Part shown: positions 16,994-32,521 of the stretch, one piece after another
Layout of the letters: each line of letters opens with the position of its first letter
Position numbering within the stretch: the first letter of the stretch is position 1
Assembly (NCBI RefSeq): GCF_036010325.1
Contig: NZ_CP108549.1
Span: forward strand, 3,286,001 to 3,350,000
Reading direction: 5' to 3'
DNA from: Streptomyces sp. NBC_01210
GTDB lineage: Bacteria > Actinomycetota > Actinomycetes > Streptomycetales > Streptomycetaceae
Length of the DNA: 64,000 bases
Notes under the pieces: generated by a model
What the model was told of the DNA's origin: nothing
The model's input: the letters and a program-made list of their open reading frames with translations, nothing else
The model's database searches: none
Program-made: the position numbers and the translations under genes

Positions 16994-18259
16994 ATGAAGC
17001 TCGCAGTCGTGGGTGGCGGATCCACCTATACCCCTGAGTTGATCGACGGCTTCGCCCGGCTGAGGGACACCCTCCCGATCAGTGAACTGGTCCTTATCGA
17101 CCCGGCGGCCGACCGGCTCGAGCTGGTCGGCGGTCTGGCGCGGCGGATCTTCGCCAGGCAGGGACACGACGGGAGGATCGTCACCACCTCGGACCTGGAC
17201 GCGGGTGTCGCCGACGCCGACGCGGTGCTGCTGCAGCTGCGCGTCGGCGGGCAGGCGGCGCGGAACCAGGACGAGACCTGGCCGCTGGAGTGCGGCTGCG
17301 TCGGACAGGAGACGACGGGTGCGGGCGGCCTCGCCAAGGCGCTGCGTACCGTCCCGGTCGTCCTCGACATCGCCGAGCGGGTGCGCCGTACCAATCCGAA
17401 TGCCTGGATCATCGACTTCACCAACCCGGTGGGCATCGTGACCAGGGCGCTGCTGCAGGCCGGCCACAAGGCCGTCGGTCTGTGCAATGTCGCCATCGGC
17501 TTCCAGCGCAAGTTCGCGGGGCTCCTCGAAGTCGCCCCGGCCGACATCCACTTGAACCATGTGGGCCTCAACCACCTGACGTGGGAGACGGGTGTGCGGC
17601 TCGGCGGTCCCGAGGGCGCGGACGTACTGCCGAAGCTGCTGGCCGGACACGGTGACGCGATCGCCGACGATCTGCATCTGCCGCGTGCGGTGCTCGACCG
17701 GCTCGGTGTCGTCCCCTCGTACTACCTGCGCTACTTCTACGCGCACGACGAGGTCGTACGGGAGCTGAAGACGAAGCCGTCGCGGGCCGCCGAGGTCGCG
17801 GAGATGGAGAAGCAGCTGCTCGAGATGTACGGCGACCCGGCGCTCGACGAGAAGCCGGAACTGCTCGCCAGGCGCGGCGGCGCCTTCTACTCGGAGGCGG
17901 CCGTGGACCTGGCGGCCTCGCTGCTGGGCGCAGGAGGCAGCCCGTACCAGGTGGTGAACACCGTCAACAAGGGCACGCTGTCCTTCCTGCCGGACGACGC
18001 CGTGATCGAAGTGCAGGCCGCCGTCGGCTCGCAGGGCGTGACACCGCTGCCCGTGCCCGAAGTCGACCCGTTGTACGCGGGGTTGATCGCCCAGGTGACG
18101 GCCTACGAGGACCTGGCGCTGGAGGCCGCCCTGCGCGGCGGTCGCGACCGCGTCTTCAAGGCCATGCTGTCGCATCCGCTGATCGCCCAGTACGAGTACG
18201 CCGAAGCACTCACCGACAAGCTGATCGCGCACAATCAGGAGCACCTCGCGTGGGCGTGA
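16994..18259 (+). CDS. csnH: glycoside hydrolase family 4 enzyme (CsnH)
   Basis: The 421-residue family 4 enzyme is NAD- and metal-dependent. The N-terminal Rossmann motif reads VVGGGSTYTPELIDGF. Metal-site residues are the Cys of GLCNVAIGF (near 160) and the His of NHVGLNHLTW (near 192). A further family signature is PVGIVTRALLQAG. In this operon it should split imported glucosamine oligomers into monomers, which differs from the phospho-glucosidase label often given to GH4 proteins. It begins 7 bp after csnG and its last codons overlap csnK. Whether the substrate is phosphorylated cannot be read from sequence. Confidence 0.9.
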   Translation: MKLAVVGGGSTYTPELIDGFARLRDTLPISELVLIDPAADRLELVGGLARRIFARQGHDGRIVTTSDLDAGVADADAVLLQLRVGGQAARNQDETWPLECGCVGQETTGAGGLAKALRTVPVVLDIAERVRRTNPNAWIIDFTNPVGIVTRALLQAGHKAVGLCNVAIGFQRKFAGLLEVAPADIHLNHVGLNHLTWETGVRLGGPEGADVLPKLLAGHGDAIADDLHLPRAVLDRLGVVPSYYLRYFYAHDEVVRELKTKPSRAAEVAEMEKQLLEMYGDPALDEKPELLARRGGAFYSEAAVDLAASLLGAGGSPYQVVNTVNKGTLSFLPDDAVIEVQAAVGSQGVTPLPVPEVDPLYAGLIAQVTAYEDLALEAALRGGRDRVFKAMLSHPLIAQYEYAEALTDKLIAHNQEHLAWA

Positions 18260-19233
18260 ACGCCGCAGTCCTCGCCATCGACGCGGGCAACAGCAAGACC
18301 GACATCGCCTTCGTCGGCGACGACGGCTCGGTGCTTGTGTCGTCGCGCGGGCCCGGCTTCCAGCCGCCGAAGGTCGGCGTCGGGGCGGCGCTCGATGTGC
18401 TCGGCGCGACTGTCGGCGAGGCGCTGGCGAAGGCACGCGCCCACGGCGCTGCCATCGACGGCGTCGAGCATGTGTCGGCCTGTCTCGCCAATGCTGATCT
18501 GCCGGTGGAGGAACGGGAGCTGACGGCCGCTCTGCACGCCCGTGAGTGGGGCCGTACGACCGAGGTGCGCAACGACACCTTCGCCATACTTCGCGCGGGC
18601 GTCGACGAGCCGCGGGGTGTCGCGGTGGTGTGCGGCGCGGGCATCAACTGCGTCGGCATGCTGCCGGACGGCCGTACCGCCCGCTTCCCCGCGATCGGCA
18701 AGATCTCCGGGGACTGGGGCGGGGGTTCGGGGCTCGCGGAGGAGGCGCTGTGGTTCGCGGCGCGGGCGGAGGACGGCCGCGGCGAGCCGACGGCCCTGGC
18801 CCGTACGCTGCCCGCGCACTTCGGCCTGGCCTCCATGTACGCGCTGATCGAGGCGCTGCATCTGGAGCACATCCCCCCGGCGCGCAAGCATGAGCTGACC
18901 CCGGTCCTCTTCGCCACCAGCGCCGAAGGCGATCCGGTTGCCCGCTCGCTGGTGCACCGGCTCGCGGAGGAGGTCGTCGCCATGTCCACGGTGGCGCTCG
19001 CCCGGCTCGATCTGCTCGACGAGGAGGCGCCGGTGCTGCTGGGCGGCAGCGTCCTCGCGGCCCGGCACCCGGAGCTGGACGAGCACATCGGCAAGCTGCT
19101 CGCGGCCAAGGCGCCGAAGGCGGTCATCGAGGTGGTGACGGCCCCGCCGGTGCTGGGCGCCGCGCTGCTGGGGCTCGACCACATCGGGGCGTCGCCGGAG
19201 ACCCGCGCCCGGCTGCGCGCGCACTACGCATAG
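18250..19233 (+). CDS. csnK: BadF/BadG-type glucosamine kinase (CsnK)
   Basis: This ATPase of the BadF/BadG/BcrA/BcrD superfamily has 327 residues from GTG 18250. An in-frame GTG at 18256 gives the classic 4-bp GTGA overlap with csnH and is equally likely to be used. The phosphate-1 motif is IDAGNSKTDIAF. Adenosine-side motifs are CGAGINCVG and GDWGGGSGLAEEAL. Actinobacterial glucosamine kinases of this type phosphorylate free GlcN at C6, which would complete the route from chitosan to glucosamine-6-phosphate. It is the last gene of the csn operon, with about 300 bp before the next unit. Confidence 0.9.
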   Translation: MGVNAAVLAIDAGNSKTDIAFVGDDGSVLVSSRGPGFQPPKVGVGAALDVLGATVGEALAKARAHGAAIDGVEHVSACLANADLPVEERELTAALHAREWGRTTEVRNDTFAILRAGVDEPRGVAVVCGAGINCVGMLPDGRTARFPAIGKISGDWGGGSGLAEEALWFAARAEDGRGEPTALARTLPAHFGLASMYALIEALHLEHIPPARKHELTPVLFATSAEGDPVARSLVHRLAEEVVAMSTVALARLDLLDEEAPVLLGGSVLAARHPELDEHIGKLLAAKAPKAVIEVVTAPPVLGAALLGLDHIGASPETRARLRAHYA

Positions 19234-19532
19234 CGAGAGCGGGACGGCAGGACGGCAGGAACCCCAGCCTCCGCTGTATCCGGCCTCCGCCCAGGCCCCC
19301 GGGCGCGGGTTCCGGCATCCGTGCAGAGGGAACCGATCAAGGCTCTGAAGCGTATTCATGGTGGGGAGAACGGTGGGGAGAACGGCCTGGCAGGATCCTG
19401 AATTGCTGCGACAGCAACAAGATCCAGTCAATCATGCTGTGAATGTCAGTCACTGCGGCCATACTGCTGACCGGGAGTCGTCCCCCACCCGCCGGGGGGC
19501 GGGCCGACGTCAGCGACCGAGGGGGAGGTCAC
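19234..19532. promoter_or_regulatory. intergenic region before the glnX-pknG operon, with repeats and a dyad
   Basis: These 299 bp hold no gene. They contain acggcagg twice near 19247, a 12-bp tandem duplication ggtggggagaac (19360-19371 and 19372-19383), and a TTGCTG-CGA-CAGCAA dyad (19403-19417). Just beyond the dyad is an AT-richer stretch that probably holds the operon promoter. I could not fix the -10 and -35 boxes. Confidence 0.5.
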
Positions 19533-20924
19533 GTGACATACCCGCCTACTGCGCGCACCGCGCCCCAGGCGGCTGCGGCGTATGCGCCCGCACAGCCGCC
19601 GGCCCAGCCACCCGCACACCGCGGCGCATGGGCCGAGGGCAAGGAGCGGCTGCGTACTGCTGCGACGACCGAGCCCGGCCGGCTGCAGATCATCGGGGCC
19701 GTGCTGGCCGCGCTGGTGGTGGCGTTCGGCGCGGTGACCGCGTTCGAGATCTCCGACCGGGCGGCCGCGGCCGACGATGTGGTGAGCCGCAGCCAGCCGC
19801 TGAGCGCGGACGCCGCGTCCATCCACCGCTCGCTGGCCGACGCGGACGCCGCGGCGGCCAACGGCTTCCTCGCGGGCGCCGAAGAGCCCCGCGCCATCCA
19901 CGAGCGGTACGAAAAGGACATCACGGCCGCATCCCGCCTGCTGATCAACGCCGCGGCGAATACCGACAGTTCGACCGAGTCGGGCCGCGAGACAGCGACG
20001 CTCAATGAGCAGCTGCCCCGCTACACAGGCCTGGTCGAGCGCGCGCGCGCCAACAACCGGCAGGGCCTGCCGCTCGGCGGCGCCTATCTGCGGTACGCGA
20101 ACCTGAAGATGTCGACCGAGCTGCTGCCCGCCGCCGACAAGCTCTACAAGGCGGAGACGGCGCGACTCGGCCAGGACACCGGCGACGCGCAGGACTGGCC
20201 GTTCGCCTCGCTCGGTCTCGGCGTGCTGGCGCTGGCCGCGCTCGTCTGGGCCCAGCGGCGCAACTACCGGCGTACGAACCGCATGTTCAACCACGGGCTG
20301 CTGGCCGCCACAGCGGCCTCGACGATCGTCATCCTCTGGCTGATCGTGGGGCACACAGTGGCCCGCACCGAGCTGCAGGCCGCCATGGAGCGCGGACAGG
20401 ATTCCCTGAAGACTCTCAACACCTCCCGGGTGCACGCGCTGCAGGCCCGTGCCAACGAGAACCTGACACTGGTGGCACGAGGCGCGGTCCTCACCCCGGA
20501 CGGCAAGAACGACCAGTACGAGTTCAACTACAAGAACCGCATGGACGCCGTCAGCCTCACGCTCAAGGGGGCGAAGGACCTCGCCGACGACCCCGAGGGC
20601 CGCGGCCCCGTCGCGGACGCCACCACGGCCGTGGCCGAGTGGCGCACCCGCCATCAGAAGGCGCGCAACACCGACAACGACGGCGACTACGAAGGAGCCC
20701 TGCAGCAGACCATTGGGGCGAAGGGCTCCACGGGCCAGTCCTTCGACACGGTGGACGCGGCGCTGCGCCAGGCGATCGACCATGAGCAGCGCGAGTTCAC
20801 GGCGTCCGCGGAGTCCGCGCGCGGGGCACTGGCCGGGCTGCCGATCGGCGCCGCCGCGCTGGCTGTGCTGGGCGCGGCGGGAGCCGTTCTCGGCATCAAC
20901 CGCAGACTTTCGGAGTACCGGTGA
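19533..20924 (+). CDS. glnX: GlnX-like membrane sensor, four transmembrane helices
   Basis: I chose GTG 19533, which has GGGGGAGG four bases upstream; a longer reading from 19443 has no site. The 463-residue protein has a Pro/Ala-rich cytoplasmic start and TM1 (about 49-72). A helical extracytoplasmic domain (about 73-221) comes next, then TM2 and TM3 close together (about 222-240, 254-276). A second helical extracytoplasmic domain (about 277-430) precedes TM4 (about 431-455) and a short tail. Gene order and topology match mycobacterial GlnX, which relays ligand occupancy of GlnH across the membrane to kinase PknG. No enzyme domain is present. The gene ends in a 4-bp GTGA overlap with glnH. 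Confidence 0.8.
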   Translation: MTYPPTARTAPQAAAAYAPAQPPAQPPAHRGAWAEGKERLRTAATTEPGRLQIIGAVLAALVVAFGAVTAFEISDRAAAADDVVSRSQPLSADAASIHRSLADADAAAANGFLAGAEEPRAIHERYEKDITAASRLLINAAANTDSSTESGRETATLNEQLPRYTGLVERARANNRQGLPLGGAYLRYANLKMSTELLPAADKLYKAETARLGQDTGDAQDWPFASLGLGVLALAALVWAQRRNYRRTNRMFNHGLLAATAASTIVILWLIVGHTVARTELQAAMERGQDSLKTLNTSRVHALQARANENLTLVARGAVLTPDGKNDQYEFNYKNRMDAVSLTLKGAKDLADDPEGRGPVADATTAVAEWRTRHQKARNTDNDGDYEGALQQTIGAKGSTGQSFDTVDAALRQAIDHEQREFTASAESARGALAGLPIGAAALAVLGAAGAVLGINRRLSEYR

Positions 20925-21946
20925 GAGGCGGCGCGATGAGGGTTGCGAGGAGCAGGTTCCGTGGCTGGGGCGGCGTCGCGGGGATGGCCGCGGCCTGCGC
21001 ACTGACCGCCGCCGCCACGCTGCTGCCGCTGTCCCACGGCGCTGCGGACAACGCCGGCTCGGTGCTGGCCGGCCAGGGCGTGGCCTCGGCCCGGCCCGCC
21101 AAGGCGGACGACTGTGCGACGCCCGAGGCCTCGCTGCCGTCGTCGGCCGCCGGCGGGCCGAACATCGACGCGATCGTGCAGCGGGGCAAGCTGATCGTCG
21201 GCGTCGATCAGAACAGCTACCGCTGGGGCTATCGCAACCCCGCCTCCGGCGGTCTCGAGGGCTTCGACATCGATCTCGCGCGGGCGATCGCCCAGGACAT
21301 CCTCGGCAGGCCGGACGCCATCATCTTCCGCGCCATACCGACCAACCAGCGCATACCCGCGCTGAACAACGGCACGGTGGACATCGTCGTCCGTACGATG
21401 ACGATCAACTGCGCCAGGATCAAGCAGGTCGCGTTCTCCACCGCGTACTTCCAGACCGGCCAGCAGGTGCTCGCGCCCAAGGGCTCGTCCATCACCGGAT
21501 ACAACAAGTCGCTCGCCGGGAAGAAGATCTGCTCGGCGGAGGGCTCGACGGCGTACGACGCCCTGGCGAAGAACTCCTTCGGAGCGACGTTCAAGGATGA
21601 GCACGACGGGCAGCCGCAGGACGAGGAGCAGTTCACCGTGCCCAACCAGCTGGACTGCCTGGTCCGGCTCCAGATGGGCCTCGTCGACGCTGTCGTGACG
21701 GACGCCGCCCTCGCGGCCGGCCAGGCTGCGCAGGACCCCGCGGTCGAGCTCAAGGGCGGCAAGCCCTTCACCACCGAGTTCTACGGAGTCGCCACCAAGC
21801 TCGGCAACGACGACCTGGTGCGCCGGGTCAACAAGGTGCTCGACGACTACCGCAAGGGCCCCTGGACGGAGGCGTACAACAAGTGGCTGGTGGCCGATCT
21901 GCCCGGGATAACCGGGCCGCCGGCGCCCAAGTACCGCACCGGCTGA
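20921..21946 (+). CDS. glnH: amino-acid-binding protein GlnH (family 3 solute-binding)
   Basis: This is a 341-residue exported family 3 solute-binding protein. GTG 20921 overlaps the glnX stop; an in-frame ATG at 20936 with GAGAGGCGG nearby is an alternative. A signal peptide covers about the first 40 residues, and I see no convincing lipobox. The family core is clear: LIVGVDQNSYRWGYRN, GFDIDLARAIAQDIL, NGTVDIVVRTMTINCAR, AGKKICSAEGSTAYD, LQMGLVDAVVTDA. Mycobacterial GlnH binds Asp/Glu/Gln and signals through GlnX to PknG rather than feeding a transporter. No permease or ATPase gene is near, which supports the same sensory role here. Confidence 0.88.
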   Translation: MRGGAMRVARSRFRGWGGVAGMAAACALTAAATLLPLSHGAADNAGSVLAGQGVASARPAKADDCATPEASLPSSAAGGPNIDAIVQRGKLIVGVDQNSYRWGYRNPASGGLEGFDIDLARAIAQDILGRPDAIIFRAIPTNQRIPALNNGTVDIVVRTMTINCARIKQVAFSTAYFQTGQQVLAPKGSSITGYNKSLAGKKICSAEGSTAYDALAKNSFGATFKDEHDGQPQDEEQFTVPNQLDCLVRLQMGLVDAVVTDAALAAGQAAQDPAVELKGGKPFTTEFYGVATKLGNDDLVRRVNKVLDDYRKGPWTEAYNKWLVADLPGITGPPAPKYRTG

Positions 21947-21991
21947 CCTACGAACGACTAGTCCTGGCAGGAAGAAGCGGAGAGGTGATCG

Positions 21992-23308
21992 ATGGGCGTC
22001 GCGGGACCCACCGGGCCGGTGATGGACCGGGACGAGGTGGACCGTGCGCTGGCGCGGCTCGGCGCGGAGCACGAGGCGATCGAGACGTCGCTCCTCGCCC
22101 TGCAGGACCACGCGGGCCGCAGGCTCCTCGAAGGTGCCGGGCTGACGGGCGTCACCAAGGACCGCTGGGCCTCCACCGAGCAGGCGATAACGCTGCTGTG
22201 GGGGTACTTCGACGCGTACACCGCCGCCCTGAACGACACGCGTGAGCTGCGCGCCAGGCGGCGCTGGCCCAGTCGCGAGGACCTGGTGGAGCTGACCGAC
22301 CGGCTGCGCGGCCGCAGCGTCACGATCGCCAGCTCCGCCGCTCACCCGGCTCCCTCGATCACCGGACCCGCCAAGCTCTCCGAGCAGTTCACGCTCGAGG
22401 AGCTGGTGGCCCGGATGAACGACCTGTACGCGAGTTCGCTGGACATGGTGGTGACGGCCGACTCGGTGTGGTCCGCGCTGCCCGCCCGGATAGACCTGCT
22501 CTCCGCCGAGCTGCAGCGCACCCGCTCGCTCGCGCACTCCGTCGGCGTACGGCCCGGGGAGCACCCGGCCGGCGACGAGCTGGAGTCGATCACCCACGAA
22601 CTGTCCACACTGCGCGCCCAGGTGATCTCCGACCCGCTGGCCTTCTGGCGGTCCGCGCCCGGCAGTTCGGCCCCGGGCGGCGGCCGGCCCGACACCGACC
22701 GCTACGACCGGGCGGCACGGGCCCTGGAGGACATCCGCCGGGAGATCGAGGCGGTGCTCCAGGTCCGGCAGGACTCGGAGGCGCGGCTGCTCCGGCTGCG
22801 CGATGTGCTCTCGCGCGCCGACCGGACGCTGACCGAGGCGCGTTCGGCGCGTGGCGAGGTACTGGCGAAGATCGCGGCATCCGAGGTGCCCGCGGTCAGC
22901 GGCCCGCCGACCGTACTGCAGGAGCGGCTCGCCACCGCCGCCGAGTACCGCAGGTACTCCCAGTGGCACCGGCTCTCGCCGCTGCTGGAGTCCCTGGAGC
23001 GCGAGGCCGAGGACGAACTGCTGCGCGCCCGCGAGTCGTTGACCGCGGTCACGGCGCCGCTCGCGGTCCGCGCCGAGCTGCGCGGCCGCCTGGACGCGTA
23101 CAAGGCGAAGGTGGCCAGGCACGGGATGGCGGAGGATCCGCTGCTGATCGAGCGGTACGACGCGGCCCGCCGGATGTTGTGGAGCGCGCCGTGCGATCTG
23201 CGGGTCGCCGAGCAGGCGGTGCTGCGCTATCAGCAGGCCGCCGCGGATGTACTGGTCCCGAAACAGTCCGGACCGTCCGGGCCCACTGACCGCAGGGGGG
23301 ATTCGTGA
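21992..23308 (+). CDS. coiled-coil protein of the PknG operon, function unknown
   Basis: This 438-residue soluble protein starts at ATG 21992 behind GGAGAGG. It is rich in Glu, Arg, Leu and Ala and is largely helical. Heptad-like stretches occur at about 10-45 (DEVDRALARLGAEHEAIE), 150-185, 240-300 (ALEDIRREIEAVLQVR) and 310-400. No signal peptide, membrane segment or known domain is visible. It sits between glnH and pknG, with a 4-bp GTGA overlap into pknG, so the two products are probably made in step. It may scaffold or anchor the kinase. That role is inferred only from position. Confidence 0.85.
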   Translation: MGVAGPTGPVMDRDEVDRALARLGAEHEAIETSLLALQDHAGRRLLEGAGLTGVTKDRWASTEQAITLLWGYFDAYTAALNDTRELRARRRWPSREDLVELTDRLRGRSVTIASSAAHPAPSITGPAKLSEQFTLEELVARMNDLYASSLDMVVTADSVWSALPARIDLLSAELQRTRSLAHSVGVRPGEHPAGDELESITHELSTLRAQVISDPLAFWRSAPGSSAPGGGRPDTDRYDRAARALEDIRREIEAVLQVRQDSEARLLRLRDVLSRADRTLTEARSARGEVLAKIAASEVPAVSGPPTVLQERLATAAEYRRYSQWHRLSPLLESLEREAEDELLRARESLTAVTAPLAVRAELRGRLDAYKAKVARHGMAEDPLLIERYDAARRMLWSAPCDLRVAEQAVLRYQQAAADVLVPKQSGPSGPTDRRGDS

Positions 23309-25998
23309 GCGAGGACAAGCACTGTCAGCGCCCCGGTTGTGAGGGCTCCTACGAGGACATGGGCAGCGGTGAGCTGTACTGCGACACCTGCGGACTTGCG
23401 CCCGTCGTCTCGCCCACCGGCATGGTCGCCTCGCAGCCCACCGGCATCACGGGCGGCGGCCGGGGCAGCAGTTCCGCACGGAGCAGTTCACGCTCCTCGC
23501 GGGCCTCGTCGCGCTCGTCGACCTCACGCCGTTCCGTCTCCGGCCGGCTGTCGCGTTCGCTCTCCGGCAGCAGCACCTCGTCCCGTTCGGTCTCGGTGCG
23601 CAGCTCCGGCACCAGCTCCGGCGCGTCCGGCCGCAACCGCCTGGGAGCCGGCCTGGTCTCCGTACCGGAGGTGCCGCGCCCCGATCCGCGCACGGCGGTG
23701 ATGGAGAACCCCGAGGTCCCGGAGCGGAAGCGGTTCTGCTCGCGCTCCGACTGCGGGGCTGCGGTGGGACGTTCGCGCGGTGAGCGCGCGGGCCGTACGG
23801 AAGGTTTCTGCACCAAGTGCGGGCACCCGTACTCCTTCGTGCCGAAGCTGAGCGAGGGCGACATCGTGCACGGGCAGTACGAAGTCATGGGCTGTCTCGC
23901 CCACGGCGGCCTGGGCTGGGTCTATCTGGCGGTGGACCGTGCGGTGTCCGACCGCTGGGTGGTGCTGAAGGGTCTGCTGGACACGGGCGACCAGGACGCG
24001 ATGGCGGCGGCGATCTCGGAGCGCCGCTTCCTCGCGGAGATCGAGCACTCCAACATCGTCCGGATCTACAACTTCGTCGAGCACCTCGACCAGCGGACCG
24101 GCTCTCTCGACGGCTACATCGTCATGGAGTACGTCGGCGGAAAGTCGCTGAAGGAGATCGCCAACGACCGGCGCGGCGCGGACGGCAAACGCGACCCGCT
24201 GCCGGTCGAGCAGGCGTGCGCGTACGGCATCGAGGCGCTGGAAGCGCTCGGGCATCTGCACAGCAGAAACCTGCTGTACTGCGACTTCAAGGTCGACAAC
24301 GCCATCCAACAGCAGGACCAGCTCAAGCTCATCGACATGGGCGCCGTCCGCAGGATGGACGACGAGGAGTCCGCGATCTACGGCACGGTCGGCTACCAGG
24401 CGCCGGAAGTCGCCGAGGTCGGCCCGTCGGTGGCCTCGGAGCTGTACACGGTCGCGCGGACGCTGGCCGTGCTGACCTTCGACTTCCAGGGCTACACCAA
24501 TGTGTTCGTGGACTCCCTGCCCGACCCGGAGAACATCCAGGTCTTCCGGACGTACGAGTCCTTCTACCGGCTGCTGGTGCGCGCGACGGACCCGGATCCG
24601 GCGCGGCGGTTCGCCTCGGCGCAGGAGATGGCGGAGCAGCTGACGGGCGTGCTCCGGGAGGTCGTGGCGATTCAGACGGGTCGCCCGCGGCCTTCACTGT
24701 CCACGCTGTTCGGCCCGGAACTGCGAGTCACGGACACGCAGTTGTTCGCGGAGCTGACGGGGGACGTGTCGCAGCTGGGCGCGCGGGTGGTGCAGCCTTC
24801 GGGCCGCGGGCGCGCCAAGCGGGCGGCGGCCGGGAACGGTTCGGCCACCGGGAACGGTGCGGCCGCGATGGCCGGTCCGGCTGCGGTGGGCGTCGGTCCG
24901 GCGGCCCACCCCTGGGGCGCCGGAAGCGCCGGAATCCCGGGCGCCTCAGTCGCCAACCCCTACGCGTCACCGGCCGCCGCGATCCCCGCGCCACGTGTGG
25001 AGGGCCTCGGCGCGCTGCCCGCCGGCCTGTCCCTCGCACCGCATCTCGCGGTGCTCGACACCCGGGCGACCTCGCTCGCGCTGCCCGTGCCGCGCGTCGA
25101 CCCGAACGACCCCAACGCCGGTTTCCTCGCCGGCCTCATGGCCTCCGCGCCCGCCGAGCTGATCGCCGCGCTGCACTCCGCGGCCGCCAGTTCCCCCGAG
25201 ACCCGGCTGCGCGAGCTGCGCGCCCGTCTTGAGATGCGCGAACTGGACTCCGCCACCAGGGCGCTGGCGACACTGGAGAGCCAGCATCCCGACGACTGGC
25301 GCGTCGTCTGGTACCGCGGTCTCACCTCGCTGGTGACCGGTGAGAACGAGGTCGCGGCGCTCTCCTTCGACGCGATCTACGACGCGTTCCCCGGCGAGCC
25401 CGCGCCCAAGTTGGCGCTGGGCGTCTGCGCCGAGGTGCTCGGTCAGCTGGACAACGCCGCGGAGTACTACCGCCTCGTGTGGACGACCGACCCGAGCTAT
25501 GTCAGCGCCGCATTCGGCCTGGCGCGGGTGCAGATCGCGGCGGGCGACCGGGCCGGAGCCGTACGGACCCTGGAGTCGGTACCCGAGGCGTCGATCCACT
25601 ACACGGCGGCGCGGGTCGCGGCCGTACGGGCGAGGCTGCGGCGACGCGCCGCGCACGACCCCCTGATCGACGACCTGACGGCGGCCGCGGCGCAGGTGGA
25701 CGCCCTGAAGGACTTCGGTCTGGACGCGGTGCGCCGTGAGCAGTTGTCCACAGAAGTACTCGGGACGGCTCTCGACTGGGTACTCTCCGGAAGTCCCGGA
25801 GTCCAGCCGTCCGTACCGACCGCACCGAACATACAGAGCGCAGCGACCGTGCTGCTCGGCAGCGAACTGGACGAGCGCGGCCTGCGCTTCGGGCTGGAAC
25901 GCTCCTACCGGGTGCTCGCCCGGCTCGCCCAGCGCGGCGAGGAGCGGATAGACCTGGTGGAGCGGGCGAACCGCTTCCGCCCCCGGACGTGGGTGTGA
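23305..25998 (+). CDS. pknG: PknG-type serine/threonine protein kinase
   Basis: The 897-residue soluble kinase begins at GTG 23305. An N-terminal CxxxxC/CxxC pair (C7, C12, C26, C29) is followed by a Ser/Arg-rich linker (about 45-110). A second four-Cys rubredoxin-like site (near 145-172) sits just before the kinase domain, as in mycobacterial PknG. Kinase landmarks are GQYEVMGCLAHGGLGWVYLA, Lys222 in VVLKGL, catalytic Asp327 in LLYCDFKVDN (no HRD, as usual for PknG) and D344-M-G in place of DFG. GTVGYQAPEVA and LTGVLREVVAIQTGRPRPS also match the family. TPR-like helices occupy about 640-880. In relatives it couples amino-acid status to central metabolism by phosphorylating FHA proteins. Confidence 0.95.
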   Translation: MSEDKHCQRPGCEGSYEDMGSGELYCDTCGLAPVVSPTGMVASQPTGITGGGRGSSSARSSSRSSRASSRSSTSRRSVSGRLSRSLSGSSTSSRSVSVRSSGTSSGASGRNRLGAGLVSVPEVPRPDPRTAVMENPEVPERKRFCSRSDCGAAVGRSRGERAGRTEGFCTKCGHPYSFVPKLSEGDIVHGQYEVMGCLAHGGLGWVYLAVDRAVSDRWVVLKGLLDTGDQDAMAAAISERRFLAEIEHSNIVRIYNFVEHLDQRTGSLDGYIVMEYVGGKSLKEIANDRRGADGKRDPLPVEQACAYGIEALEALGHLHSRNLLYCDFKVDNAIQQQDQLKLIDMGAVRRMDDEESAIYGTVGYQAPEVAEVGPSVASELYTVARTLAVLTFDFQGYTNVFVDSLPDPENIQVFRTYESFYRLLVRATDPDPARRFASAQEMAEQLTGVLREVVAIQTGRPRPSLSTLFGPELRVTDTQLFAELTGDVSQLGARVVQPSGRGRAKRAAAGNGSATGNGAAAMAGPAAVGVGPAAHPWGAGSAGIPGASVANPYASPAAAIPAPRVEGLGALPAGLSLAPHLAVLDTRATSLALPVPRVDPNDPNAGFLAGLMASAPAELIAALHSAAASSPETRLRELRARLEMRELDSATRALATLESQHPDDWRVVWYRGLTSLVTGENEVAALSFDAIYDAFPGEPAPKLALGVCAEVLGQLDNAAEYYRLVWTTDPSYVSAAFGLARVQIAAGDRAGAVRTLESVPEASIHYTAARVAAVRARLRRRAAHDPLIDDLTAAAAQVDALKDFGLDAVRREQLSTEVLGTALDWVLSGSPGVQPSVPTAPNIQSAATVLLGSELDERGLRFGLERSYRVLARLAQRGEERIDLVERANRFRPRTWV

Positions 25999-26001
25999 TT
26001 G

Positions 26002-27402
26002 ATGTCGTCGCAGAAGCAGCATCAGCTGGCCACCGGGGCGACATGCCCCAGCTGCGAGGAACCGCTGGAGACGGGTGACCTGTTCTGCGGTGCGTGCGGG
26101 TACGACCTGTCGACCGAGCCCGCACCCCGGGACGACCATCCCACCGTCGCCATCGGCACTCCCGTCGAGTGGCCGGCGGCCACCGGGACGGACACCTCGG
26201 GCACGCCCGCGCCGGTACATCTGCCGGACGATCTGGCGGGTACGGACTCGGGCGGCCGTCAGCTGTCCGCATCGGCCGTGCGGTACGACGATCCGCCCGG
26301 CCATGAGGCGTCCGCCGATGCCAGTGCCTCATCGAGCGGCGACTTCCAGCTGGCCGCGCCCGATGCGGGCACCGCCGTGGCCGCAGACCCGCGCGCCGTG
26401 GACCCCGCCGCCCCTTCCGCGCCCGCCACTCCTTCCGCGCCCGCCGCTCCTTCCGCGCCCGGCACCAAGCTCTGTGTGGCCTGCCGCGCCGGCCATGTCG
26501 ACACCGACGGCTACTGCGAGAACTGCGGCCACGCGCAGCCCCGCGAGCGCGACCACATGGAACAGGAACTGGGCTCGGTCGCTGCCGTCAGCGACCGCGG
26601 GCTGCGCCACCACCGCAACGAGGACTCGTTCGCGGTCTCCTGCACGGCTCTGCCGGACGGCTCACCCGCCGTCGTCGCGATCGTCTGCGACGGGGTCTCC
26701 TCGGCGACCCGCCCCGACGAAGCCTCGGAGGCCGCCGCGAGCGCCGCCAACGAACTGCTGCTGGAGTCGCTGCCGCGCGGCACACACCCCCAGCAGGCAA
26801 TGCACGAGGCGATCATCGCCGCCTCCGAGGCGGTCAACTCCCTTGCCGTGGACCCCGGTCAGGCCGAGGCCATGGAGCACGATCCGCACCGCCATCAGAA
26901 CGCACCCGCCTGCACGATCGTCGGCGCGGTGGCCGCCGCCGGTCTGCTGGTCATCGGCTGGGTCGGCGACAGCCGCGCCTACTGGGTGCCCGACGACCGC
27001 GGCGGCCCGCCCGCCCGGCTCACCGAGGACGACTCCTGGGCCGCCCAGATGGTGTCGGCCGGCCTGATGAGCGAGGCGGAGGCGTACGCCGACGAGCGCG
27101 CCCACGCCATCACGGGGTGGCTGGGAGCCGATGCGTACGAACTCGAGCCGCACACCGCCTCCTTCAAGCCCGACCGGCCCGGTGTGGTCGTGGTCTGTAC
27201 GGACGGCCTGTGGAACTACGCGGAAGGCGCCGAGGAGATGGCCCGGGCCATCCCGGTGGATGCCGCGGACCGGCCGCTGCACAGCGCGCAGGTACTGGTC
27301 GGTCATGCGCTCGACGGCGGCGGCCACGACAACGTAACAGTGGCCGTCCTGCCGTTCGCCGTGCCGCACCAAGGGGCAGGATCGGCCTACAACAAGGCTT
27401 GA
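26002..27402 (+). CDS. PP2C-family protein phosphatase with N-terminal zinc ribbons
   Basis: ATG 26002 follows the pknG stop by 3 bp; a TTG one codon earlier is in frame but unlikely. The 466-residue protein has two four-Cys zinc ribbons: CPSC...CGAC at about 15-32, and CVAC...CENC at about 155-175. An acidic, then Ala/Pro-rich linker separates them. The PP2C domain (about 190-455) has all metal-binding acids: RHHRNEDSF, IVCDGVSSAT, WVGDSRAYW, VVCTDGLWNY, GHDNVTVAVL. It should dephosphorylate Ser/Thr residues in the cytoplasm and is the natural counterpart of the adjacent PknG. Its substrates are not known. Confidence 0.93.
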   Translation: MSSQKQHQLATGATCPSCEEPLETGDLFCGACGYDLSTEPAPRDDHPTVAIGTPVEWPAATGTDTSGTPAPVHLPDDLAGTDSGGRQLSASAVRYDDPPGHEASADASASSSGDFQLAAPDAGTAVAADPRAVDPAAPSAPATPSAPAAPSAPGTKLCVACRAGHVDTDGYCENCGHAQPRERDHMEQELGSVAAVSDRGLRHHRNEDSFAVSCTALPDGSPAVVAIVCDGVSSATRPDEASEAAASAANELLLESLPRGTHPQQAMHEAIIAASEAVNSLAVDPGQAEAMEHDPHRHQNAPACTIVGAVAAAGLLVIGWVGDSRAYWVPDDRGGPPARLTEDDSWAAQMVSAGLMSEAEAYADERAHAITGWLGADAYELEPHTASFKPDRPGVVVVCTDGLWNYAEGAEEMARAIPVDAADRPLHSAQVLVGHALDGGGHDNVTVAVLPFAVPHQGAGSAYNKA

Positions 27403-27488
27403 GCCCCGATATGTCCGGCGAGCCGTCGCCCGCGGGACACCCGTGTCCCTTTCTCGCCGCCTCAGCGGAGCCTCAAGGAGCCGATCAG

Positions 27489-28847
27489 ATGGCCAATTTC
27501 TCCAAGTCCCAGGTGCCGCAGTTCTCCGTCGAGGTGTACCAGAACGAATTTCTGCCGGAGGGCGGCCGCGAGGTCAACGCGATCGTCACGGTCGCCTCCA
27601 CCGGAGGCGGCACCAGCGGCGGGGCGCCGCTGGCGGGAGCGTCGTCCTCCCCCTCGTACATACCGGGGCAGGCACCGAGCGCCGCTGTGGTGATCATGGT
27701 CGACTGTTCCGGCTCCATGGACTATCCGCCGACCAAGATGCGCAATGCGCGTGATGCCACGGCCGCCGCCATCGACACCCTGCGCGACGGTGTCGCCTTC
27801 GCGGTGGTCGCCGGTACGCATGTGGCGAGCGAGGTCTATCCCGGAGGCGGCCGGCTCGCGGTCGCCGATGCGCAGACCCGCGGCCAGGCCAAGGAGGCCC
27901 TGCGCCGGCTCAGCGCGGGCGGCGGCACCGCGATCGGCACCTGGCTGCGGCTGACCGACCGGTTGCTGGCCTCCTCCGACGTCCCGATCCGGCACGGCAT
28001 CCTGCTCACCGACGGGCGCAATGAGCACGAGTCCCCGGAGGACCTGCGGTCAGCCCTGGACGCAGGCGCGGGCCGCTTCACCTGCGACGCCCGCGGAGTC
28101 GGCACGGACTGGGAGGTCAAGGAGGTCACCGGCGTCGCATCGGCGCTGCTCGGCACGGCCGATATCGTCGCCGACCCGGCCGGGCTGGCCGCGGACTTCA
28201 CCAGCATGATGGAGAACGCCATGGGTAAGGAGGTCGCGGATGTGGCACTGCGGCTGTGGACGCCCGTCGGCGTGGAGATCAAGTTCGTCAAGCAGGTGGC
28301 GCCGACGGTCGAGGAGCTGACCGGGCGGCGTACGGAGGCGGGGCCGCGGGCCGGGGACTATCCGACCGGCTCCTGGGGCGACGAGTCCCGCGACTACCAC
28401 GTGTGCGTCCAGGTGCCGGAGGCGGGCATCGGCCAGGAGATGCTGGCGGCCCGGGTCTCGCTGATCATTCCGGCTGCGGACGGCGGCGCTCCCGAGGTGC
28501 TTTCGCAAGGGCTCGTCAAGGCGGTGTGGACGGACGACATGGTGGCGTCCACCTCGATCAACCCCCAGGTCGCGCACTACACGGGGCAGGCCGAACTGGC
28601 ACAAGTCATCCAACAGGGGCTGGATGCCCGCAAGTCGGGTGACTTCGACGGCGCGACCGCCAAACTGGGCCGTGCGGTACAGCTCGCGGCGGACTCGGGG
28701 AACGAGGACACTGCGAAACTCCTTTCGAAGGTGGTGGACGTCGTCGATGCGGCGACAGGTACTGTGCGACTGAAGGCGAAGGTCGCGGAAGCCGACGAGA
28801 TGACTCTCGAAACGCGCTCCACCAAGACGGTTCGTGTGAAGAAGTAG
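27489..28847 (+). CDS. von Willebrand factor A domain protein
   Basis: I chose ATG 27489, with AAGGAG eight bases upstream; an upstream in-frame extension lies inside the phosphatase gene. The 452-residue cytoplasmic protein has a vWA domain (about 65-240). Its metal-ion site is intact: MVDCSGSM with Asp near 72 (DxSxS), then GTAIGTWL and LLTDGRNEH. The C-terminal part is a beta-rich region (about 240-370) followed by a helical segment (about 360-430, QAELAQVIQQGLDARKSGDF). vWA proteins assemble protein complexes. Here it sits between a PP2C phosphatase and an FHA protein, suggesting a scaffold in the same pathway. Confidence 0.92.
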   Translation: MANFSKSQVPQFSVEVYQNEFLPEGGREVNAIVTVASTGGGTSGGAPLAGASSSPSYIPGQAPSAAVVIMVDCSGSMDYPPTKMRNARDATAAAIDTLRDGVAFAVVAGTHVASEVYPGGGRLAVADAQTRGQAKEALRRLSAGGGTAIGTWLRLTDRLLASSDVPIRHGILLTDGRNEHESPEDLRSALDAGAGRFTCDARGVGTDWEVKEVTGVASALLGTADIVADPAGLAADFTSMMENAMGKEVADVALRLWTPVGVEIKFVKQVAPTVEELTGRRTEAGPRAGDYPTGSWGDESRDYHVCVQVPEAGIGQEMLAARVSLIIPAADGGAPEVLSQGLVKAVWTDDMVASTSINPQVAHYTGQAELAQVIQQGLDARKSGDFDGATAKLGRAVQLAADSGNEDTAKLLSKVVDVVDAATGTVRLKAKVAEADEMTLETRSTKTVRVKK

Positions 28848-28907
28848 CAACAGAAACACTGATGTGAACGGCCCTCGGGCCGAACGAGGAGAGGGGGAAG
28901 CGCCGAC

Positions 28908-30149
28908 ATGCCGACCTGCCCAAACGGACACCAGTCGGGTTCCGACGACTGGTGCGAGGTCTGTGGCCACCGCATGGCCGGTCCTGGCGCTCCCGCGGGT
29001 GCCGTTCCGCCGCCGCCTCCCCCGCCGCCGGCCTATGGCTACCCGGGCCCCGGTGATCCGAACGCCACCGCCCAGGCCGAGCTCTGCCCGCAGTGCCGCA
29101 CCCCGCGCGAGGCCATGGCCCCGTTCTGCGAGGAGTGCCGGTACAACTTCCTCACGCACACGGCGACGTCGTACACCCCGGTGGCTCCGTCCCAGCAGCC
29201 CCCCGGGCTGAACCTTCCGCCGGGCTTCCAGTCCCAGCCCGCGCAGGCGTCGGCACCGCTGCCGCCCCCGCCCCCGCCGCCGCACCTTCAGCAACCGCAT
29301 CAGCAACCGCATCAGCAGCATGATCCGTACGACTACCAGAGCTCGCGGCCCTCGCAGATGAACCGGCCGGCCGAGCCGCTGACGAACGAACCGCCGGCCC
29401 AGCAGCAGCCGTACCAGCAACAGCCGGGTCCCCCGGCCCCGCCGTCCTTCCCGCAGAATCCGTTCCCCAACCCGCAGGCGCAGCCCGGTCCGCCGGCGCC
29501 CCCCGCGTACCAGCAGCCTGCTCCGCCCGCCCCGCCGCAGCCCCAGCAGACGGGCGGTGGCGACGACTGGATGCTGTCCCCGCCCTCGCAGCCCCAGGCA
29601 CCACAGAGTCCGCATGCGCCGCAGCAGCCGGATTCGTTCCGGCAGCCGGGGGATCCCTTCCAGCAGCAGCCGATGCCGCAGCAGTACGCCCAGGAGCAGG
29701 GCCGACCTCAAGGCCAGCAGCAGCCGCCGCAGTACCAGACCCCCGCGGGCTGGACCGCCGTCATCGCGCCCGACCGTGAGTACTTCCTGGCGATGATGCA
29801 GCGCAGCGGCCCCGAGGCCACCGGCCTCAATCTGCCCGCGTACTCGCCCGAGCAGCACCTGCCGCTCACCGGGAACCAGATCACCATCGGCCGCCGCCGG
29901 CACTCCACGGGCGAGTCCCCCGACATCGATCTGTCCGTACCGCCGGAGGACCCGGGCGTCTCGCACCAGCACGCGGTGCTGGTCCAGCAGCCCGACGGTT
30001 CCTGGGCCGTTGTCGACCAGAACTCCACCAACGGCACTACGCTCAACGGCGCCGAGGACCCGCTCCAGCCCTATGTGCCCGTCCCGTTGAACGACGGCGA
30101 CCAGGTCCATGTCGGCGCCTGGACGACCATCACCATCCGGCGCGGCTAG
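28908..30149 (+). CDS. FHA-domain protein with zinc ribbons and a Pro/Gln-rich linker
   Basis: The 413-residue protein starts at ATG 28908 behind GAGGAGAGGGGG. A first zinc ribbon has two Cys pairs (CPNGHQSG...CEVC, about 4-24) and a second has CPQC...CEEC (about 62-80). Residues about 85-280 are Pro/Gln-rich and disordered. The C-terminal FHA domain (about 320-410) keeps the phosphothreonine-binding residues: ITIGRRRHSTG, VSHQHAVL and NSTNGTTLNG. It should dock phosphorylated partners of PknG or the kinase itself. It lacks the ETTS-type N-terminal phosphorylation motif of the mycobacterial PknG substrate GarA, so it is not a simple GarA equivalent. The operon ends here, overlapping the convergent methyltransferase gene by 4 bp. 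Confidence 0.93.
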   Translation: MPTCPNGHQSGSDDWCEVCGHRMAGPGAPAGAVPPPPPPPPAYGYPGPGDPNATAQAELCPQCRTPREAMAPFCEECRYNFLTHTATSYTPVAPSQQPPGLNLPPGFQSQPAQASAPLPPPPPPPHLQQPHQQPHQQHDPYDYQSSRPSQMNRPAEPLTNEPPAQQQPYQQQPGPPAPPSFPQNPFPNPQAQPGPPAPPAYQQPAPPAPPQPQQTGGGDDWMLSPPSQPQAPQSPHAPQQPDSFRQPGDPFQQQPMPQQYAQEQGRPQGQQQPPQYQTPAGWTAVIAPDREYFLAMMQRSGPEATGLNLPAYSPEQHLPLTGNQITIGRRRHSTGESPDIDLSVPPEDPGVSHQHAVLVQQPDGSWAVVDQNSTNGTTLNGAEDPLQPYVPVPLNDGDQVHVGAWTTITIRRG

Positions 30150-31165
30150 GGCGTTCCCTGGCGGCCCGCCGCGGTGGCCCAGCCGGTCGGGCGTCCGAGC
30201 GGCCAGGCGTACGGCCCTTCGGGGTCGTCCAGCCAGGCCCACTGGTGGTCCCCGCTGACGGTGACCCCGAACCGGTCCCGCTGTGGGCGCCGCTCGCGCT
30301 CCCACAGCGAGAGGGCCTCGTGCGGGTCGAGGCTGCCCGCGGTCAGGGTCAGCAGGAAGCGGAAGAGGTCGTTCTCGATCGCGCGCCTCGGCAGCCCGCC
30401 GATATGCCCCTCCCGCGGCAGCTCGCCACCGCGCAGCGGCACGAAGTACGCCGATGTACGCAGAAAGTGGCCCTCCGCACTTCTGCCGCCGCTGTCGTCA
30501 CGCACCCGCAGCGCGATCAGCCCGGTGGAGAGCGGAGCCAGGATCCGCGCCCCCGGGCTGCACTGCGGCAGCCAGTCGAACGGCACCGACGGCAGCGTGC
30601 AGGTCGCGATGATGCGGTCGAAGGGGGCGCGCGCCGGGCAGCCGCGCGCACCGTCGCCGGTGGCGACGGTGGGGTGGTGGCCGGCGGCCGCCAGATGCGA
30701 CCGCGCCGATTCGGTGATCTCCGGGTCCAGATCGACGGTGGTCACCAGGTCGTCGCCGAGCCGGTGCGACAGCAGCGCGGCGTTGTAGCCGGTGCCCGCG
30801 CCGATCTCGAGTACGGCGTTCCCGTCCTCGACATCGAGCTCCTCGAGCATCCGGGCCATCAGCGAGGGCTGGCTGCTGGAGGAGAGCAGCTCACCGTCGC
30901 GCACCCGGGTGGCGAGCGGCCCGTCCGCGTACGCCCCCCGCAGCCAGCGCTCCCGCCGCACGGGGTCCGGGTCCTCGCACCACAGGCGTTCGTACGCGCC
31001 CGCCCGGCTCCCGTAGTAGTACGGCACGAACAGGTGCCGCGGCACCTCTTCGAACGCCGCCCGCCAGGCCGGGTCGGTCAGCCCGCCGCCCGCCACGATC
31101 TCCCGCACCAACAACCGCCGCGCCTCGGCGGCGGGCTCGGCGAACCGGTCCAGGTGCACAGCCAT
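30146..31165 (-). CDS. protein-L-isoaspartate O-methyltransferase-like SAM enzyme
   Basis: The 339-residue protein is read from ATG 31165, with AGGAGAG upstream; an in-frame extension to 31273 lacks a site. The PCMT-like fold starts with FEEVPRHLFVPYYY. The SAM-binding glycine loop is VLEIGAGTGYNAALL (near 120), then VVTTVDLDPE-type VTTVDLDPEITESAR and FDRIIATCTLPSVP. A C-terminal region of about 120 residues (FLRTSAYFVPLRGG, QWAWLDDPEGPY) goes beyond the classical repair enzyme. That tail is common in actinomycete paralogues, and proteins of this architecture may act in natural-product or peptide modification. The substrate is therefore open. The gene is divergent from glbO. Confidence 0.85.
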   Translation of the reverse strand: MAVHLDRFAEPAAEARRLLVREIVAGGGLTDPAWRAAFEEVPRHLFVPYYYGSRAGAYERLWCEDPDPVRRERWLRGAYADGPLATRVRDGELLSSSSQPSLMARMLEELDVEDGNAVLEIGAGTGYNAALLSHRLGDDLVTTVDLDPEITESARSHLAAAGHHPTVATGDGARGCPARAPFDRIIATCTLPSVPFDWLPQCSPGARILAPLSTGLIALRVRDDSGGRSAEGHFLRTSAYFVPLRGGELPREGHIGGLPRRAIENDLFRFLLTLTAGSLDPHEALSLWERERRPQRDRFGVTVSGDHQWAWLDDPEGPYAWPLGRPTGWATAAGRQGTP

Positions 31166-31349
31166 GCCTCCACTCTCCTGCGCCACCGCCCCCTGGGCGA
31201 GCACCCGATCGGGGGTGGTCCCGGTGCTGGAGTCCTCGGCCGGTGCGTCTGAGACGATGGACGGGTGCTGCACTTCCCGGGGGCTACCCCCGGACCCCCG
31301 GCCGACACCCCTCGGGGCTGACCAGAGACATATTGCGAGGCTTATTCAC

Positions 31350-31754
31350 GTGAACGAGATTCCGCGCGGCACCGTTCAGGAACAGACCTTCTACGAGCAG
31401 GTCGGCGGCGAGGAGACTTTCCGGCGGCTCGTCCACCGCTTCTACCAGGGCGTTGCCGAGGACCCGGTGCTGCGGCCGATGTACCCGGAGCAGGATCTGG
31501 GACCGGCCGAGGAACGGCTTGTTCTCTTCCTGATGCAGTACTGGGGCGGTCCGCGCACCTACAGCGAGCACCGCGGCCATCCCCGGCTGCGGATGCGGCA
31601 CGCGCCGTTCACCGTCGACCGGGCCGCGCACGACGCCTGGCTGAAGCACATGCGCACGGCTCTCGACGAGCTCGGACTCTCGGAGGAGCACGAGCAGCAG
31701 CTGTGGCACTACCTCACCTATGCCGCGGCAACGATGGTGAACGCCGCAGACTGA
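31350..31754 (+). CDS. glbO: group II truncated haemoglobin (trHbO)
   Basis: This is a 134-residue 2-on-2 haem protein. GTG 31350 has GCGAGG upstream; longer in-frame readings overlap the divergent methyltransferase promoter. Group II features are the proximal His in RMRHAPF (near 83), the Trp at G8 in DAWLKHM, the Tyr in LRPMYPEQDL and the AEERLVLFLMQYWGGP helix. These proteins bind oxygen and react with nitric oxide or peroxide, and often sit near the membrane. It appears monocistronic. A run of three 14-bp repeats and a hairpin follow its stop codon. Confidence 0.94.
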   Translation: MNEIPRGTVQEQTFYEQVGGEETFRRLVHRFYQGVAEDPVLRPMYPEQDLGPAEERLVLFLMQYWGGPRTYSEHRGHPRLRMRHAPFTVDRAAHDAWLKHMRTALDELGLSEEHEQQLWHYLTYAAATMVNAAD

Positions 31755-31789
31755 ACACCTCGGACTGAACGCCGCGGACCGAACGCCGC
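31748..31789. repeat. three 14-bp tandem repeats at the glbO stop
   Basis: agactgaacacctc, ggactgaacgccgc and ggaccgaacgccgc run head to tail. The first copy includes the glbO TGA. They lie directly before the terminator hairpin. Confidence 0.7.
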
Positions 31790-31810
31790 GCTCCGGCCCG
31801 CCGAGCGCGG
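31786..31810. terminator. terminator between glbO and the convergent unit
   Basis: CCGCGCTC, a 9-base loop and GAGCGCGG form a perfect 8-bp stem between convergent genes. No T-run follows, as is usual in high-GC actinomycetes. Confidence 0.6.
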
Positions 31811-31846
31811 AACGGAAGATGCCCGCTCACCGCTTCCGGTCGTGGG

Positions 31847-32521
31847 TCAACCGAGCCTGGTGGGGGTCACGCTCAGTCCGCCGAGACCGGACGTGCGTAC
31901 GGCGATCGACCCGAAGGGCGTACGCAGTCTGAGCCAGCCGCCCGCGGACAGCAGCGCGACCGGGACTCCGGGTCGCAGAAAGCCGAGCGACTGGGCGGCG
32001 TGCACGGCACGCAGCGGCAGTCCGGTGCCGGCGACGGTGCGCGCCCAGATCTCTTGCCCGATCCGGTCGCGCTCGGCGCGGGTGCGGCGCTCGGCGGGCA
32101 ACTGCTCGTCACGGGTGCGGAATTCAGCGACGGCGGCGGCGACCGCGCCGCGCATCGTATTCACTTCGGGGAGTCCGGAGATCTCGCGCCAGCCGCCGCG
32201 CGGCGGCACCACACCGGCCCATGGCGGACCGGTGACGGCGGCGGGCACGGTGAACTCCGCGCCACCCTCAGCGCCGACGCGCTCCAGCAGTTCGCCCGCG
32301 GAGACGGTGGCATCCAGCTCGACGGGGTCGCCGAGCCGTGCCGTACGGATGGCGAGCACCTCAAAGGAGGGCGGACGCCCGAAAACGGCAAGCGCGCCGG
32401 CCCAGGCCTGGAGCCTGACCACGGCGGCGCGGTCGTAGTGGATCAGCCGGGCGAGGAAGGCGGCGAGATCCTCCGCCTCCCTCGCATCGGCGAAGTGCAG
32501 ACTCCGCACGGGCACGGTCAT
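31847..32521 (-). CDS. uncharacterised actinomycete protein coupled to a thioesterase
   Basis: The 224-residue soluble protein starts at ATG 32521, sharing ATGA with the stop of the upstream thioesterase gene. That overlap decides the start; the longer frame runs into the neighbour. It begins with TVPVRSLHFADAREAEDLAAFLARLIHYDR and contains RTRAERDRIGQEIWART and LGFLRPGVPVALLSAGGWL. No catalytic motif or membrane segment stands out. It belongs to a conserved streptomycete hypothetical family, as far as I can judge from the ordered Leu/Arg-rich pattern. Tight overlap suggests shared function or stoichiometry with the thioesterase, but I cannot name a role. Confidence 0.85.
   Translation of the reverse strand: MTVPVRSLHFADAREAEDLAAFLARLIHYDRAAVVRLQAWAGALAVFGRPPSFEVLAIRTARLGDPVELDATVSAGELLERVGAEGGAEFTVPAAVTGPPWAGVVPPRGGWREISGLPEVNTMRGAVAAAVAEFRTRDEQLPAERRTRAERDRIGQEIWARTVAGTGLPLRAVHAAQSLGFLRPGVPVALLSAGGWLRLRTPFGSIAVRTSGLGGLSVTPTRLG

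Follow-up and report, generated by a model that had tools for sequence, protein, structure and literature searches.

A seven-gene PknG locus of Streptomyces with an ArnAB-like vWA-FHA pair, part of which can outlast its amino-acid sensor and kinase

Seven open reading frames (ORFs) at 19533-30149 of the window, by which we mean the whole 64,000-nucleotide stretch of Streptomyces sp. NBC_01210 DNA analysed here, lie on one strand and encode GlnX, GlnH and the kinase PknG together with a coiled-coil protein (CC), a PP2C phosphatase, a protein with a von Willebrand factor A (vWA) domain and a protein with a forkhead-associated (FHA) domain. The unit is best explained as two parts: an input-plus-kinase part, made up of GlnH, GlnX, PknG and a vWA partner, and a part comprising CC, PP2C and FHA that is able to outlive the former. 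The initial annotation had given the identities and order of the seven genes, and both stand: the ORFs are on the + strand at the positions below, and all except CC have family matches. The features are as follows.

19533 (or 19443)-20924, + strand: glnX, whose longest ORF begins at 19443; GlnX-family membrane signal protein (NF058618, E 8e-144, 479.8 bits against a cut-off of 250).
20921-21946, + strand: glnH, overlapping the end of glnX by 4 bp; solute-binding protein, family 3 (SBP_bac_3, 2.9e-27).
21992-23308, + strand: CC, coiled-coil protein predicted to be all-helical, after a 45-bp gap.
23305-25998, + strand: pknG, overlapping the end of CC by 4 bp; N-terminal zinc ribbon, rubredoxin, kinase and tetratricopeptide repeat (TPR) regions (PknG_rubred 1.1e-32, Pkinase 2.1e-24, PknG_TPR 5.6e-87).
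23323-23394, + strand: extra zinc-ribbon motif of PknG, residues 7-30, preceding the rubredoxin domain; pattern C-x(3,4)-C..G..C.
25999/26002-27402, + strand: PP2C, abutting pknG; phosphatase with N-terminal zinc ribbon(s) (PP2C_2 7e-13, Zn_Ribbon_1 3.1e-06).
27489-28847, + strand: vWA, after an 86-bp gap; ArnB-like, with vWA domain, beta-sandwich and C-terminal helices (VWA_3_C 1.5e-23 and structure model).
28806-28829, + strand: vWA tail, residues 440-447, motif L[DE]xxSxxT; putative PknG site and FHA ligand.
28908-30149, + strand: FHA gene, after a 60-bp gap; two N-terminal zinc-ribbon motifs, a long P/Q-rich linker and a C-terminal FHA domain (FHA E 3.6e-15).
28917-28967, + strand: zinc-ribbon motif 1 of the FHA protein, residues 4-20, from the translation; also in relatives.
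29085-29138, + strand: zinc-ribbon motif 2 of the FHA protein, residues 60-77, CxxC-x10-CxxC, from the translation; also in relatives.
29880-30116, + strand: FHA domain, residues 325-403 (PF00498).

The small gaps and overlaps and the shared strand fit a single transcript, the largest intergenic distance being 86 bp. The several 4-bp overlaps described earlier hold for two junctions; a third close junction, between pknG and PP2C, only abuts.

Gene order was examined in 100 loci of about 20 kb with profiles built from the window proteins; the counts exclude columns of the CC profile past 430, which reflect a merged-ORF artefact. All 32 Streptomyces main loci have the seven genes in the same order and on the same strand, and a PknG_TPR match is present in 281 of 295 genomes of the genus and 143 of 394 of the class. 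Amongst 80 named loci retrieved with the vWA protein, 70 have all seven genes in order, including one from a Solirubrobacteraceae metagenome-assembled genome (L173); nine of the remaining ten are cut by contig ends and one is a true rearrangement (L142, Kutzneria). Streptosporangiaceae have the order CC-PknG-PP2C-vWA-FHA-GlnX-GlnH in 12 of 23 loci, with four more lacking a detected CC. The Streptomyces order occurs in nine of 20 loci of family f90, several others there being paralogues or cut contigs. In family f7, two of six loci have all seven genes and four have all except a detected CC; a gene of CC length stands at the CC position, with a C-terminus that, judged by eye, is similar. In L095 (f41), from a different class, CC-PknG-PP2C-vWA-FHA is accompanied by GlnH-GlnX on the opposite strand. 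Because the set recurs across Streptomycetaceae, Streptosporangiaceae, f90, f7, f83 and f41, a functional tie among the genes is indicated, as had been claimed earlier along with the mycobacterial order of GlnX-GlnH-PknG. The same follows from co-occurrence: of 96 class genomes (out of 394) with a vWA match at E<=1e-30, 95 also have a PknG_TPR match, the sole vWA-bearing genome without one being G658, which is 88% complete. The vWA gene is also kept beside pknG without PP2C and FHA in the paralogous loci L044-L046, L058, L084, L123, L126 and L132.

Natural deletions provide evidence on the dependence among the parts. We inspected 25 genomes of the same genus with no or weak PknG_TPR match (the class sample supplied three and the genus sample 22) and took regions for 13 of them; CC is present in 23 of the 25, and in four (G878, G881, G890 and G930) pknG is merely cut by a contig end. 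In eight loci (G369, G635, G667, G1024, G830, G953, G1008 and G969) CC and PP2C lie on contiguous sequence with pknG absent or reduced to a stub, and glnX and glnH are likewise absent or fragmentary. CC, PP2C and FHA are full-length in all eight, and vWA only in two (G1008 and G969), being gone or decayed in the other six; these loci speak against the 'one pathway' that had been proposed for the seven genes. A ninth candidate, G1002 (L128), was rejected since 257 consecutive N separate CC from PP2C and the sequence upstream of CC is only 930 bases long; its vWA is a stub. In a tree of CC, PP2C and FHA the eight loci are spread over seven loss clades, with low support at some nodes (0.15-0.8). 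Where one member of a pair or both lack PknG, the ratio of non-synonymous to synonymous substitution rates (dN/dS) is 0.17-0.36 (CC), 0.21-0.42 (PP2C) and 0.33-0.55 (FHA); the corresponding values for pairs that have PknG are 0.21-0.49, 0.28-0.48 and 0.21-0.63. Pairs of a PknG-less with a PknG-bearing member also span a period preceding the loss, and doubtful or independently lost loci enter into two of the pairs, so that continued constraint on the three genes after loss of PknG is only roughly indicated. It should be noted that the G953 and G969 genomes each contain a PknG_TPR match at another place; in G953 it is the PknG-vWA paralogue L132.

The converse arrangement, GlnX-GlnH-PknG alone, is found in six of seven loci of f3, which we take to be Mycobacteriaceae, and in both loci of f113. 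In L127 (G427:C1:7083672-7103671) PP2C-vWA-FHA are present and pknG is missing at the locus. The initial annotation had named independent movement of the later genes as the observation that would refute it, and the eight PknG-less Streptomyces loci, the six f3 and two f113 loci and L127 provide such movement. In a tree of 62 PknGs, two f3 copies from seven-gene loci are sister to seven three-gene f3 PknGs with an ultrafast bootstrap (UFBoot) of 100; the two f113 PknGs cluster with loci of Kutzneria and Actinophytocola (UFBoot 85), and deeper nodes are weak (40-69). With Streptomyces PknG paralogues as root, these did not stand as one clade against the rest, and the tree is read without a firm root. 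Since the three-gene PknGs lie inside the seven-gene range, the three-gene mycobacterial operon is best read as the reduced form; losing the same four genes several times over is a simpler history than assembling the set more than once. On these sequence comparisons the three-gene form is probably the reduced one, and the earlier term 'expanded' has the direction backwards. The f3 genomes concerned, G719 (L121) and G640 (L122), contain both a full seven-gene copy and the three-gene type, for which transfer and retention are both possible.

The vWA and FHA proteins suggest how the parts might work together. The vWA model has the three-domain fold of ArnB (vWA, beta-sandwich and C-terminal helical domain) with an intact MIDAS, and the protein is 52-56% identical to the sequence of Catenulispora 4FX5; its residues 442-452 have pLDDT <50, the tail being disordered in the model. 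The tail pattern [LIVM][DE][TAVS]xS[TSVQ]xT is present in 153 of the 154 vWAs whose locus also has an FHA gene (the exception is L069), and in two of nine at loci without one (L123, and L211, which a contig end truncates). The Streptomyces tail has the sequence E-T-x-S-T-x-T, which recalls the E-T-T-S-T acceptor region of GarA; the likeness was spotted post hoc and is weaker in other families. The initial annotation named no outputs for the pathway; GarA is the known output of PknG and contains a known PknG phosphorylation site. The extra PknG ribbon, in turn, is found in 150 of 156 PknGs with vWA at the locus and in five of 20 without (none of 15 in one group, all five in the other, which are all Streptosporangiaceae), nine loci at contig ends being excluded.

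We give an even chance to a scheme, drawn by analogy, in which PknG writes on the vWA tail, the FHA protein reads the mark and PP2C erases it, CC, PP2C and FHA serving other kinases as well. An amino acid bound by GlnH would signal through GlnX to the kinase, the route published for mycobacteria and Corynebacterium. PknG would dock on the vWA protein, perhaps via its extra zinc ribbon, and phosphorylate the disordered L[DE]xxSxxT tail. The FHA protein would then clamp the vWA protein, with its zinc ribbon on the vWA body and its FHA domain on the phosphorylated tail, in the manner of ArnA and ArnB; PP2C would undo both the phosphorylation and the clamp. CC may be a helical adaptor, and GarA, encoded outside the operon, would remain the metabolic output. 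That CC, PP2C and FHA persist where PknG has been lost would be due to their proposed service to other kinases.

Several observations weigh against this scheme. Three Streptosporangiaceae loci (L049, L054 and L055) have no vWA and keep PknG, PP2C, FHA, GlnX and GlnH; vWA has been dropped there from its position between PP2C and FHA. Because FHA is kept without vWA in these and in the six PknG-less loci mentioned above, the tail cannot be its sole ligand. G1008 and G969 retain vWA though the locus lacks PknG, and L056 retains the PknG ribbon though it lacks vWA, PP2C and FHA. The ribbon pattern was relaxed twice post hoc, the successive versions matching 134 of 137 (25 unclassified), 138 of 152 (6 unclassified) and 150 of 156 PknGs at vWA loci. 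The vWAs without a tail are paralogues that have diverged; loss of the tail may be no more than part of this divergence, with descent as the confounder. The vWA tail and the GarA motif differ in register, and the first Thr is missing from Nocardiopsis-type GarA. Finally, confidence in the vWA model is moderate (pLDDT 74.9, from 25 sequences).

The locus might instead hold two devices that share a transcript, GlnH-GlnX-PknG acting on GarA only and CC-PP2C-FHA serving other kinases such as PknB, with vWA an accessory of PknG unconnected to FHA. The eight PknG-less loci, with CC, PP2C and FHA intact and dN/dS of 0.17-0.55, are what this would lead one to expect, as are the free-standing three-gene operons and the retention of GarA elsewhere, also in three PknG-less genomes inspected. 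It is nevertheless rather unlikely, given that PknG, PP2C, vWA and FHA are almost fully linked in several families, that the tail motif tracks FHA and the PknG ribbon tracks vWA, and that ArnA-ArnB sets a precedent for a vWA-FHA pair. The opposite extreme, one indivisible pathway with all seven products devoted to the amino-acid signal alone, would suit the overlaps and the order fixed in all 32 Streptomyces main loci; it is improbable in view of the repeated survival of CC, PP2C and FHA beyond the sensor and kinase, the three-gene operons of f3 and f113 and the PP2C-vWA-FHA remainder in L127.

Linkage by descent without functional interaction would also account for the nearly invariant order within Streptomyces. 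The association, however, outlives reshuffling, GlnX-GlnH lying 3' of FHA in Streptosporangiaceae and on the opposite strand in L095, and particular members are lost together; we consider such inertia very unlikely. There is least to be said for a conflict or defence module, which we judge extremely improbable. The kinase-PP2C-vWA trio, zinc-ribbon kinase included, does appear as an actinobacterial theme with GAP1-N2 systems in the available part of an eLife 2020 paper (PMC7159879), where a zinc-ribbon kinase, an active PP2C and a stand-alone vWA are likewise neighbours; the window differs in that its kinase is of PknG type and is accompanied by sensors, FHA and CC. No GTPase or effector domain was detected in the eight proteins scanned (the seven products and that of the next gene). 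The likeness to conflict islands seen earlier found no backing in PADLOC, which returned generic kinase matches only and none for PP2C, vWA or FHA, and the vertical conservation in Streptomyces also argues against such a module. A triad of vWA, PP2C and kinase is also known around TerY; a search of the open-licence literature for it returned nothing.

The closer comparison is with the Sulfolobus Arn system, a regulator of the archaellum in which, as far as the available text of PMC6509490 and PMC12852372 goes, a kinase phosphorylates the C-terminal domain of ArnB, ArnA reads it, and the process is under nutrient control. The parts described there include a zinc finger-FHA protein whose gene adjoins the vWA gene, a vWA protein with an inserted beta-sandwich and a C-terminal helical domain, a Hanks-type kinase with a TPR-like stretch, and a phosphatase. 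The accessible portion of the 2019 Arn paper points out the fold match to Catenulispora 4FX5. The FHA protein of the window is ArnA-like in having an N-terminal zinc finger (at motif level) and an FHA domain and in being encoded beside the vWA gene; its ribbon assignment is motif-based, with DZR at 0.0032 below the Pfam cut-off. In contrast to the Arn system (ArnA-ArnB-ArnC-PP2A), the window kinase is PknG and not of ArnC type, the phosphatase is PP2C and not of PP2A type, sensors and CC are added, there is no archaellum, and the phosphosite is a proposed disordered tail. Because the kinase and phosphatase families differ, and phospho-dependence is here only proposed, the cluster is called Arn-like and is not classed as Arn.

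It is possible, and we suggest it tentatively and by analogy, that the ancestral actinobacterial PknG worked in a switch of ArnAB type, with a vWA hub bearing a phosphorylatable tail, the docking-ribbon partners PknG, PP2C, FHA and GarA, and an FHA clamp; the three-gene pathway would be a remnant that has lost the hub and the PknG and GarA ribbons. Nearly all study of PknG so far has been via GarA and the three-gene operon; should the latter be a reduced form, the missing partners would explain the role for which the rubredoxin/TPR kinase evolved. The vWA tail would be a new candidate substrate and the FHA protein a candidate reader in Streptomyces, a bacterial amino-acid sensor would be joined to the archaeal ArnAB starvation switch, and bacteria and archaea would have in common a type of nutrient switch based on a pair of vWA and FHA proteins. 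We found no paper in the open-licence literature linking PknG with ArnAB.

The GarA homologue of the host genome (9.2 Mb) lies outside the operon (L115, G000:C1:1472430-1472762) and has a zinc ribbon before its ETTS motif, which the mycobacterial type lacks. The ribbon is present at 17 of 28 GarA loci examined and at none of nine in f3 and f113; two f7 loci were unreadable. G573, with PknG-GlnX-GlnH only, retains it, and it is missing from the f3 genomes that have a seven-gene copy. The operon FHA protein is not itself GarA/OdhI (NF041660, 20.3 bits against a cut-off of 200).

In mycobacteria and Corynebacterium glutamicum the GlnH signal passes through GlnX to PknG, according to the accessible parts of mBio 2018 (PMC6069109) and Microbiol Spectr 2022 (PMC9769921). 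The window has the same sensor-relay-kinase order, with GarA/OdhI in the genome; unlike that operon it has four further genes, and its types of PknG and GarA bear extra N-terminal zinc ribbons. PknG satisfies all three membership features (kinase, PknG rubredoxin and PknG TPR) and matches PDB 2pzi at E 6.9e-166 with aligned catalytic residues. GlnX falls below the mycobacterial equivalog threshold (NF041460, 205.8 bits against 780), and PP2C scores 100 bits against the Stp1-type model NF033484, below its cut-off of 230. The best PDB match of GlnH is the mycobacterial GlnH 6h1u (E 2.4e-46). Of the ligand side-chain contacts given for M. tuberculosis GlnH in the available text of PMC6069109 (Arg147, Thr162 and Trp232), the Arg and Thr are conserved and the Trp is replaced by Gln, as it is in 95 of 103 Streptomycetaceae loci, the other eight being unreadable. 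The ligand of Streptomyces GlnH may therefore be other than Asp/Glu.

At E 0.01 neither Pfam nor NCBIfam has a model matching CC, which has at least 2580 relatives at E<=0.001; it is 94-95% identical to Streptomyces proteins over 99% of its length. Its AF2 model (pLDDT 89.9) has 14 helices and short strands, and Foldseek found no match to it in the PDB at E<=0.001. The top match of the profile search, reovirus sigma-1 (E 1.5e-4), was judged to be coiled-coil noise. CC is thus, as modelled, a conserved all-helical protein whose function is not assignable from family or fold matches.

Scans of 18200-31400 gave no + strand terminator and no sigma-70-like promoter; as the counts did not exceed those of shuffles, they are weak evidence either way. 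Rfam gave no match in 18000-32000. The host genome also encodes a divergent second PknG_TPR kinase (L042, G000:C1:4171505-4172491, 141 bits), which has no other gene of the seven within 20 kb. Downstream of the operon, an ORF for a PCMT-like methyltransferase (30146-31273, - strand; TIGR04188, 263 bits, below the cut-off of 380) overlaps the FHA gene end to end by 4 bp.

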